A DNA stretch of 42,720 bases, taken from positions 1 through 42,720 of the forward strand of contig QCKF01000011.1 of assembly GCA_003215545.1 (NCBI GenBank), given 5' to 3'. This document shows, one piece after another, positions 25,942 to 29,116 of the stretch (position 1 is its first letter; the number at the start of each line of letters is the position of its first letter). The translations under genes were made by a program, and so were the position numbers. This DNA is from Prochlorococcus sp. AG-409-L14. Lineage in GTDB: Bacteria > Cyanobacteriota > Cyanobacteriia > PCC-6307 > Cyanobiaceae. Below the pieces are notes generated by a model. The model saw nothing but the letters and a program-made list of their open reading frames with translations. It made no database searches and was not told the DNA's origin.

Positions 25942-26505
25942 TCAGAACTGAACATTATCGTTAATGCCCACAAGATGCTCCTGCAGAGACAACATCTCTT
26001 GAAGATTATCTGAGGTGCAATGATCCCAGCCTAATAAATGAAGGAGGCCATGAGAAACAAGCCATCGTAATTCAATTAATAATCCATGACTCATCTCCAT
26101 AGCTTGACGATGTGCAGTTTCAACAGAAACAATAATGTCACCCAACTCTAAACAAATCTCAGTAGGCAAAGTAAAACTTTCATCTAATATTGGGAATGAG
26201 AGAACATCTGTAGAAGATTGCTTCTTTCTCCAATGTAAGTTTAGTAGCTTAATTTTCTCATCGTCTGTAAACTTCAAGCCCATACTCATCGAAGATGAAA
26301 GCCTAACAAACTCTGGACAGGCTAAAGACTTGTCATTGCGGATAAACCTAATCCAACTTTGAAGAATATTTGTCCAGTACTGAGAATCATTTATTAATTT
26401 AGTCAATATTTCATATTCTTTGACATAGGGATCAAAAGAATATTCAGAATCATAATTAAAAACGAGATCCAACTCAAAAGAATCGGATATATTATTCCGG
26501 ACCAT
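25942..26505 (-). CDS. ybeY: Endoribonuclease YbeY (rRNA maturation factor)
   Basis: 187 residues. The zinc site H-x3-H-x5-H is present as His152, His156 and His162 in HGLLHLLGWDH. STDVLSFPI (98-106) and LGDIIVS are also typical. YbeY is a metal-dependent RNase that processes the 3' end of 16S rRNA and takes part in ribosome quality control. The N terminus is about 40 residues longer than the compact bacterial form, as in other picocyanobacteria. The gene lies six bases after the DUF3285 gene. Confidence 0.93.
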   Translation of the reverse strand: MVRNNISDSFELDLVFNYDSEYSFDPYVKEYEILTKLINDSQYWTNILQSWIRFIRNDKSLACPEFVRLSSSMSMGLKFTDDEKIKLLNLHWRKKQSSTDVLSFPILDESFTLPTEICLELGDIIVSVETAHRQAMEMSHGLLIELRWLVSHGLLHLLGWDHCTSDNLQEMLSLQEHLVGINDNVQF

Positions 26506-26511
26506 ATAATT

Positions 26512-26703
26512 TTAGTGTGGAATGGTTGGCCTCCCAAGCCAAGCAATAATGCAAATAAATCCTACGCATCCAAATGCTGTAAGAGCAAAATGGAAAAGGC
26601 TTTGACTTCCCTTTCGAACCATATTCCGCATAGCTAGCTTCACAAAGCTAGCTGGAGGTGTTCTCTTTGAAGAAGATCTTTTAGGTTCTAAATCAGTAGT
26701 CAT
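26512..26703 (-). CDS. Small membrane protein, DUF3285-like
   Basis: 63 residues. A basic, Ser/Pro-rich N terminus is followed by VKLAMRNMVRKGSQSLFHF and one membrane segment (about 40-56, ALTAFGCVGFICIIAWLG). The sequence and its place between prfB and ybeY resemble the cyanobacterial DUF3285 family, for which no function is established. Family name is from memory. It is separated from prfB by only 10 bases, so it is probably in the same transcript. Confidence 0.75.
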   Translation of the reverse strand: MTTDLEPKRSSSKRTPPASFVKLAMRNMVRKGSQSLFHFALTAFGCVGFICIIAWLGRPTIPH

Positions 26704-26713
26704 TTGATTGAAT

Positions 26714-27842
26714 TTAGTTCTCTATATTAGTATCAAGGCGATCTGCACGCACCCTTAGAAGTGCCTGAATAAATTGCTCCAAGTCACCATTCATTACTGC
26801 TTGTACATCAGTTGTTTCTTCTGCAGTTCTTAAGTCTTTAACCATCTGATATGGATGAAAAACATAATTGCGGATTTGATTTCCCCAGGCTGCTTCAACA
26901 ATGTCACCTCTAATATCTGCAATCTGTGCTGCTCTTTGTTCTTGTGCAATAACCATCAATTTAGCTTTTAATAAAATCATTGCCTTTTCCTTATTTTGTA
27001 GCTGTGAGCGCTCCTGTGTACAACGCACTGCCAAACCTGTTGGAATATGAAGAATACGAACAGCAGTTTCAACCTTATTAACATTTTGACCTCCTGCGCC
27101 TCCAGATCGACTAGTAGTTATTTCCAGATCTTTTTCTGGAATTTCTAACTGAACTTCATCATCTAACTTTGGCATCACCTCAACTCCAGCAAAGCTTGTT
27201 TGGCGTTTATCATTTGCATTAAAAGGTGAAATCCTGACAAGTCGATGGGTACCTTTTTCATTTTGCAAATATCCATATGCATACCTACCCTCAATCTCAA
27301 TTGTTGCACTTTTTATGCCAGCTTCTTCACCTTCTGAAAGCTCATCAACCGTAACCGTCATCTTCTGAGCCTCAGCCCAACGGGTATACATTCTCAAAAG
27401 CATTTGTGCCCAATCCTGAGCATCAGTACCTCCAGCGCCTGCATTGATAGACAAAACGGCTCCTTCCTTGTCATAAGGACCACTTAAAAGTCGTTCAAGC
27501 TCCCAACGATCAAGATCAGCCTCTAATTGCTTCAATCCAGAAAGAGCCTCTGCAAGCATTTCTTGATCTGGCTCAAGCTCATAAAGGTCAACAATTGCAT
27601 TCGCATCATTTATTGCAGCATCCCAACTTTCAAAACGTGCCAACTCTGCCTTCACTTCATCTAAATGACGCATCTGTTTCTTTGCATTCTGCTGATCACC
27701 CCAAAAATCAGGTTGAGCTGCAATTTGTTCTAGATCTTTTTGTGTTGCAGTCAAAGCAGGCACGTCAAAGACAGTCCTGGGCATTGCCCAGGCGATCAGT
27801 GAGAACAGACAAATCTCTTTTGAAATCAGTTAAATCAAGCAA
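26714..27842 (-). CDS. prfB: Peptide chain release factor 2, expressed by programmed +1 frameshift
   Basis: RF2 recognises UGA and UAA. Residues 1-25 are read from TTG 27842 ([18 protein letters not shown], then NAQDCL). Codon 26 is UGA at 27767-27765 in the slip site CTT TGA C. After a +1 shift over T27767, translation continues at GAC 27766 ([11 protein letters not shown]) to 26714, giving 375 residues. On this numbering the anticodon-like SPF falls at 205-207 and GGQ at 250-252, the same positions as in E. coli RF2. A Shine-Dalgarno-like AGGA lies just upstream of the slip site at the spacing known to stimulate shifting. A start at 27784 in the second frame gives a protein that would lack the N terminus and is rejected. 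Confidence 0.9.
27764..27778 (-). promoter_or_regulatory. RF2 autoregulatory +1 frameshift site
   Basis: On the minus strand, AGGAC-TGT-CTT-TGA-C (27778-27764) places a Shine-Dalgarno-like AGGA three codons ahead of the stop, followed by CTT and the UGA codon with C as next base. This is the conserved RF2 arrangement (E. coli: AGGGGG-TAT-CTT-TGA-C). When RF2 is scarce, the ribosome pauses at UGA and slips +1 to make more RF2. Confidence 0.9.
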
Positions 27843-27924: not shown

Positions 27925-28185
27925 ATGGCAAAAATAGAAATCTACACCTGGCAATACTGTCCGTTCTGTATCAGGGCAAAATCTTTGCTTCAGCAGAAAG
28001 GCATCGATTTCATAGAACATTCAATAGATGGAGACCAAAAAGCGCGTTCAAACATGCGCAATAGAGCTGATGGAAGAAATACTGTTCCTCAAATCTTCAT
28101 TAATGACAAAGGGATTGGAGGGTGCGATGAACTATATGAATTGGAAAAAACAAAGCAACTAGATCTTCTTTTGCAGGAAAGCTAA
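27925..28185 (+). CDS. grxC: Glutaredoxin 3
   Basis: 86 residues with the dithiol active site CPFC (residues 12-15) in [16 protein letters not shown], the cis-Pro segment TVPQIFIND and the glutathione-binding GGCDELYEL. It reduces disulfides with glutathione. It lies four bases ahead of gshB, a neat pairing of a glutathione-using and a glutathione-making gene. It is divergent from prfB, with 82 bases between start codons. Confidence 0.96.
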
Positions 28186-28189
28186 AGCT

Positions 28190-29116
28190 ATGAAACAGCT
28201 CTTCGTCCTCGACCCACTTGAGCAAATTAATCCAACCAAAGATTCATCAGCAGCATTAATGCAAGCTGCTCAAAGAGCATCCATTGAAGTTTGGGCATGT
28301 ACTCCTTCTGATTTGCAAGCTCGAGGAGACAAAGCATGGGCTGCAGCCAGTCCTGTACTAGCTGAACCTTGGATAGATATCGGAGAGCCTAAAAGCATTC
28401 CCCTATCTGACTTCACATGTATATGGATGAGAAAAGATCCTCCAGTAGACGAGGCCTTTCTGTATGCAACTCATCTTTTAGAAGTAGCAGAAAGAGATGG
28501 AGCCCTAGTGCTTAATCAACCAGCTTCTTTAAGAGCATGGAATGAAAAATTAGGTGCTCTAAGGTTTAGCGACCTTATGGCGCCAACACTGGTGGCAAGC
28601 AGGGTCTCAGAATTAGCATCATTTGCCTGTAATCAAGGCGAAGTAGTGTTAAAGCCTCTTGGAGGTAAAGGTGGACAAGGCGTTATTCGCGTTGCAACGG
28701 CCGCCAAAGGGCTTGAAGCTTTACTCGAATTAGTTACCGAACAGGAAAGGTTGCCTGTAATGATGCAAAAATTTCTCCCAGATGTTATTCAAGGAGACAA
28801 ACGTATTCTCATAGTTAATGGAGAACCTTTAGGAGCAATAAATAGGCGTCCAAAATCTGGCGATTTTCGCAGCAACCTTGCTTTAGGAGGAAAAGCTGAG
28901 GCTACACAGCTCACTCAAAGAGAAAAAGATATATGCGAAGAACTATCTCCTTCATTAAAAGCTGAAGGTTTATTTTTTGTAGGCATAGATGTTATAGGAG
29001 GTATGTTAAGCGAAATTAACGTCACAAGTCCAACTGGGATAAGAGAAGTAGAAAGTCTAATGAAAATTCCCTTAGCCGATAAAGTAATTAAGAAATTACT
29101 AACATTGTTAGATTAG
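28190..29116 (+). CDS. gshB: Glutathione synthetase
   Basis: 308 residues, ATP-grasp enzyme that joins glycine to gamma-glutamylcysteine. The N-terminal [17 protein letters not shown] and [23 protein letters not shown] are the GshB substrate domain. The glycine-rich ATP loop is [17 protein letters not shown], and the late active-site segments are [18 protein letters not shown] and [22 protein letters not shown]. It shares a transcript with grxC. The last four bases overlap the 3' end of menF. Confidence 0.96.

Follow-up and report, generated by a model that had tools for sequence, protein, structure and literature searches.

The prfB gene and its frameshift site

The window analysed in this work (i.e., the whole stretch of 42,720 nucleotides) carries on its minus strand a prfB gene whose coding sequence is divided between two reading frames. 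A zero-frame leader of 25 codons (positions 27768 to 27842) starts with TTG (27842-27840) and ends with CTT (27770-27768), which is followed by TGA (27767-27765) and C (27764), and the RF2 body, consisting of 350 codons and a stop (26714 to 27766), opens with GAC at 27766 in the +1 frame. The gene thereby shows two of the features by which prfB frameshifting is recognised, viz. an in-frame UGA early in the gene with the body in the +1 frame, and the slippery sequence CUU U with UGA and C after it (27764 to 27770), where the tRNA-Leu would slip by +1 from CUU to UUU. The frameshift and the TTG start are both as put forward in the original prediction, the coordinates and arithmetic of which are correct, with the joined RF2 having 375 amino acids, SPF at 205-207 and GGQ at 250-252. 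The encoded protein is identified as RF2 by these two motifs and by the match of the body to the NCBIfam prfB model TIGR00020 (468.6 bits, cut-off 370), and the second class-I release factor gene of the genome is RF1-like and more distant. Because the TIGR00020 match begins only at profile position 19, the simple ORF is lacking the RF2 N-terminus; as was also foreseen, an ORF caller will report a false start at ATG 27784, which is located 58 nt inside the true gene. Downstream of prfB, on the same strand, are present the genes for a DUF3285 small protein (26512-26703) and ybeY (25942-26505), and the genes for a glutaredoxin and a glutathione synthetase (27925-29116, plus strand) are divergent from it.

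Conservation of the frameshift in Cyanobacteriia

The original prediction depended on conservation of the leader frame and of CTTTGAC in relatives, and both of these are kept. At 108 loci from the same family, the leader has a constant length of 25 codons and ends in CTT TGA C. Within the class, CTTTGA is present in all 378 of the 390 Cyanobacteriia genomes in which the gene start is assembled (339 recovered by the exact hairpin pattern described below and 39 of the other 51 by inspection, with 12 having no assembled gene start). As the leader frame, its 25-codon length and the CTTTGAC are all kept in the relatives, a chance origin is ruled out and the frameshift is real. However, the frameshift as such is textbook biology that is already known. 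In a few genomes of the class the base after UGA, which is nearly always C in prfB, is swapped for U, A or G and CUUUGA is kept; this base is A or G in family f47 (L193, L194 and L196) and U in family f26 (L208, L212 and L213), with the stem and CUUUGA intact in both.

Without a frameshift, RF2 would have to initiate in the body frame, at ATG 27784, and a simple ORF does exist there. However, a body-frame start codon at this place is found in just 90 of 208 relatives and is absent in 118, and direct initiation at ATG 27784 is therefore not conserved, whereas the leader peptide and CTTTGA are kept throughout the class. Internal initiation at this ATG was rejected due to this lack of conservation, and we give virtually no credence to an RF2 made without a frameshift.

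The first codon of the leader is TTG or GTG in 103 of the 108 family leaders (L003-L113; positions 27840-27842 of the window, minus strand), with TTG in 61, GTG in 42 and ATG in none of them, and in other cyanobacterial families it is mostly ATG. The conserved weak start codon of the family may serve as a second brake on RF2. One locus, L049, lies on a contig whose title assigns it to a Verrucomicrobiales MAG, yet its prfB locus is Synechococcus-like, probably as the result of a binning error.

A conserved hairpin upstream of the shift codon

An AGGGGG-type Shine-Dalgarno (SD) sequence three nucleotides 5' of CUU, which is the usual stimulator although not required for the frameshift itself, is absent in the window. 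What is present a few nucleotides 5' of the shift site is a stable hairpin, which is one of the features expected of an upstream refolding stimulator. It is formed by a 5' arm CCUGGGC (27786 to 27792), a loop AAU (27783 to 27785) that holds the false start ATG 27784 of the simple ORF, and a 3' arm GCCCAGG (27776 to 27782), all on the minus strand, and this perfect 7-bp stem with its 3-nt loop has a predicted stability of -13.4 kcal/mol. The hairpin spans positions -22 to -6 from CUU and is separated from the shift codon by a 5-nt spacer, ACUGU (27771 to 27775, minus strand), which includes the E-site codon UGU. The spacer is 5 nt long in every relative that was aligned, and the predicted energy of the hairpin ranges from -11.3 to -13.6 kcal/mol. 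Folding of the whole leader is only moderately better than that of shuffled sequences (z -1.69).

The bases before the shift site, CGCCTGGGCAATGCCCAGGACTGTCTTTGAC, hardly vary over a GC3 range of 0.20 to 0.96, which extends from GC-poor Prochlorococcus to GC-rich Cyanobium. The exact hairpin pattern is present in 339 of the 390 Cyanobacteriia genomes, with no control matches among the matches listed, and of the remaining 51 genomes, all 39 with an assembled gene start have retained CUUUGA together with five or more of the seven stem pairs. The consensus of the hairpin in the class is CCUGGGY-NNN-RCCCAGG. A search with the Rfam covariance models yielded no relevant match to E = 10.

Selection on the base pairing

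Codon usage in the hairpin was compared among 208 prfB genes, 113 from the family and 95 from elsewhere. In the 5' arm, all of these genes encode Leu by CTG, and 195 encode Arg by CGC. Among the best conserved Leu columns of the body, by comparison, the highest value is 60% within the family and 51% in the other genes, and for the Arg columns it is at most 67%. As CTG and CGC fall outside any SD, the codon invariance of the 5' arm is beyond the reach of a selection for SD pairing. When 111 distinct sequences were shuffled synonymously using each gene's own codon usage, all 7 pairs were found in 84 of the native sequences as compared with a mean of 5.4 and a maximum of 13 in the shuffles; for the sequences with GC3 below 0.4, the corresponding number was 46 of 58 against a shuffle maximum of 5. 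None of the 7-bp registers obtained by sliding the arms came close to the pairing of the hairpin, all of them being far below it.

Covariation was examined in 105 distinct sequences, in which 96.3% of the cells are paired, and 41 double-change cells were observed versus 19.2 in shuffled sequences, with none of 500 shuffles reaching the observed number. The pair formed by columns 8 and 16, which are possibly coupled through GC content, is GC in 60, GU in 25 and AU in 19 sequences, and the A-C cell is empty: where column 8 is A (20 sequences), it faces U in 19 and C in none. The A at column 8 corresponds to about 15 changes on the RF2 tree. A strict tree-based sign test on independent pairs, which is underpowered, pointed in the expected direction (4.3 versus 0.1) with a median p of 0.125. 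A constraint on the peptide alone was rejected based on the synonymous shuffles and the codon invariance, and these sequence comparisons indicate that it is the base pairing, rather than the sequence, that is under selection. Our reading, which we regard as likely, is that cyanobacterial prfB is subject to the classical autoregulatory +1 frameshift, with the 7-bp hairpin acting as its stimulator instead of an AGGGGG SD.

The AGGA sequence and the anti-Shine-Dalgarno

The stimulator proposed in the original prediction was an AGGA sequence (27775 to 27778, minus strand), weakly SD-like, which overlaps the 3' arm. This AGGA was held to lie at the known stimulatory spacing, but it occupies positions -8 to -5 from CUU versus -9 to -4 for the AGGGGG of E. 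coli, and it is one nucleotide off with respect to the anti-SD. In fact, AGGA is the end of the 3' arm plus one base, with three of its four bases paired in the stem, a structure that the original prediction had overlooked. The pairing of CAGGACUGU from the window with the anti-SD involves 4 pairs and -4.0 kcal/mol, versus -10.3 kcal/mol for AGGGGGUAUCUUUGAC of E. coli. The role of an E. coli-like stimulator that had been assigned to AGGA is also not upheld, as the conserved element is a hairpin that contains AGG and survives where AGGA has been lost.

It could nevertheless be suggested that AGGA stimulates as a short internal SD by pairing with the anti-SD, and that the hairpin simply results from the conserved peptide RLGKTQDYL and from codon preference. 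AGGA is retained in 365 of the 378 genomes of the class, and a weak SD contribution may therefore exist; further, some sister lineages have AAGGAG in this register, -8 to -5, and the anti-SD is intact at the 16S 3' end in 8 of 8 relatives (the window's own assembly, 64% complete, has two CACCTCC matches that are not clearly 16S). However, the most codon-invariant columns are the CTG and CGC of the 5' arm, which no SD includes, the pairing goes well beyond that of the synonymous shuffles, the duplex with the anti-SD is worth only -4.0 kcal/mol, and in 12 of the 13 genomes without AGGA the stem is present. On this evidence we consider a short internal SD to be an unlikely stimulator.

The 12 stem-bearing genomes without AGGA (L182, L184, L187-190, L197, L205, L207, L211, L214 and L215) have kept 5 to 7 pairs, and in two of them, L211 and L214, the closing C-G pair is exchanged for G-C and AGGA has become AGCA. 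The stem is degenerate in the remaining genome, L174 (G534, Prochlorococcus-like), where TCTGAAG-AAT-TCTCAAG, with -4.8 kcal/mol and no AGGA, stands before an intact CTTTGA with an intact leader, and the shift is still needed, which counts against the hairpin as stimulator; it is the sole member of the class that was seen with a degenerate stem.

These genomes also bear on the suggestion that the hairpin is a mask, tuning or repressing the shift while AGGA stimulates it, either by leaving AGGA usable for the anti-SD only after a ribosome has opened the stem, or by barring free 30S subunits from initiating in the body frame at the loop ATG 27784. The pairing probability of AGG in the folded leader (0.97-1.0) and the presence of a body-frame start codon in the loop in 90 of 208 relatives accord with a mask. 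However, the stem persists both where AGGA is gone and in the 118 of 208 relatives with no start codon in the loop, and such a masking role appears quite unlikely to us.

Sister lineages and origin of the hairpin

Families of the same phylum that lie outside the class, and which are presumably non-photosynthetic given this placement and their small genomes, are lacking the stem at this place in all 30 prfB starts examined. In most of these 30, AGGAGG or AAGGAG is found before CUUUGA; a few have weaker sequences, and in one the shift site cannot be recognised. A covariance model search of 39 sister-lineage genomes gave no hit with E below 0.05. In family f31, also outside the class, the prfB start of L247 has no recognisable CTTTGA and that of L255 has TTTTTGAT and no SD; it is possible that the frameshift has been lost or altered in these two.

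The hairpin is already present in f25, the most divergent family of the class that was sampled (57-59% identity). As the hairpin occurs across the class and the sister lineages have SD-type sites, the change from SD to hairpin is placed on the stem of Cyanobacteriia. Loss of the anti-SD was rejected as the cause of this swap, the 16S 3' end being intact in 8 of 8 relatives. We somewhat favour the view that a hairpin took over the task of the internal SD of prfB on the stem of the photosynthetic cyanobacteria, and that it is a natural, class-wide frameshift stimulator in the mRNA exit region that is independent of the anti-SD.

Stable hairpins in coding regions can pause ribosomes or alter decay. 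Due to this general capacity, the hairpin could also be thought of as hindering an oncoming ribosome, or as acting in mRNA stability or processing, in a manner unrelated to the slip, although no result favours this. In contrast, the distance of 5 nt to CUU is fixed in all aligned sequences and the hairpin is present only where an SD-type stimulator is missing, and it is therefore tied to the shift site; a function unrelated to the slip is, in our estimate, very improbable.

Proposed mechanism and significance

According to the mechanism that we propose, when RF2 is scarce the UGA in the A site would remain unread, the tRNA-Leu would slip from CUU to UUU and translation would resume at GAC. The hairpin would be unwound by the approaching ribosome. 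When CUU then occupies the P site and the ribosome is paused at UGA, it would refold at the mRNA exit, where it would take the place of the SD:anti-SD helix of other bacteria. Its refolding could pull the mRNA by one nucleotide in the 5' direction and/or strain the E site, and the +1 slip would thereby be favoured. The predicted energy of the hairpin is -11.3 to -13.6 kcal/mol versus -4.0 kcal/mol for the rival AGGA:anti-SD duplex. That the hairpin stimulates shifting, and does so in this manner, is suggested by analogy with engineered upstream hairpins and with that of T4 (PMC6321510, PMC3639245, PMC5009743). In the work of Huang et al., an engineered hairpin put in place of the SD before CUUUGA had about 60% of the +1 activity of the SD with 70S ribosomes, and this only when RF2 was absent; a destabilised hairpin was much weaker (PMC6321510). 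A similar effect of an upstream hairpin was seen in yeast by Cho et al., in whose study -1 attenuation depended on stability and distance, with the activity being halved when the spacing of the hairpin went from 2 to 5 nt (PMC3639245); this weighs somewhat against the analogy, the cyanobacterial spacer being longer than that of the engineered hairpins. In T4 gene 60, a natural 5' stem loop is thought to pull the mRNA through the exit channel (reviewed in PMC5009743).

The RF2 frameshift cassette is regarded as near-uniform, with the SD:anti-SD duplex as its universal stimulator, and in a prfB survey of 12,753 genomes AGGGGG is described as hyper-conserved, with no mention of cyanobacteria or hairpins (PMC12421855). 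Because it is absent from Rfam and from this survey, the hairpin stimulator would be a new variation on a known frameshift. Our literature search found no report of a natural hairpin in the place of the SD:anti-SD duplex, nor of a cyanobacterial prfB with a hairpin; the survey by Baranov et al. 2002, which was outside that search, may mention one. If an old and large clade has exchanged this duplex for a hairpin, the decisive property would be a rigid duplex at the exit and not the pairing with rRNA itself. The natural variants, in which AGGA is lost and the stem kept or pairs are swapped, provide ready-made constructs for a direct test, and an annotation rule for cyanobacterial RF2 is also obtained.

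Comparison with known systems

With the prfB frameshift of E. coli (PMC12421855, PMC5009743), the cyanobacterial gene has in common the CUU UGA C, the UGA at codon 26, the 25-codon leader and the +1 body. However, in E. coli an AGGGGG SD is present 3 nt before CUU, whereas cyanobacteria have a 7-bp hairpin whose end is 5 nt away from it. The engineered refolding hairpins (PMC3639245, PMC6321510) are likewise located just 5' of a +1 site, but the hairpin of PMC6321510 is artificial, with 12 GC-rich base pairs, and abuts the E site, whereas that of cyanobacteria is natural, has 7 bp and a 5-nt spacer, and ends 2 nt before the E-site codon. Bypassing in phage T4 gene 60 (PMC5009743) also involves a natural stem loop located 5' of its take-off codon; however, it is a long bypass that makes use of several other signals, and in cyanobacterial prfB the shift is of a single nucleotide. 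A natural upstream stem loop affecting frameshifting is also known from Barley yellow dwarf virus (PMC5009743), but there, unlike in cyanobacterial prfB, it operates on eukaryotic ribosomes and with a long-range 3' element.
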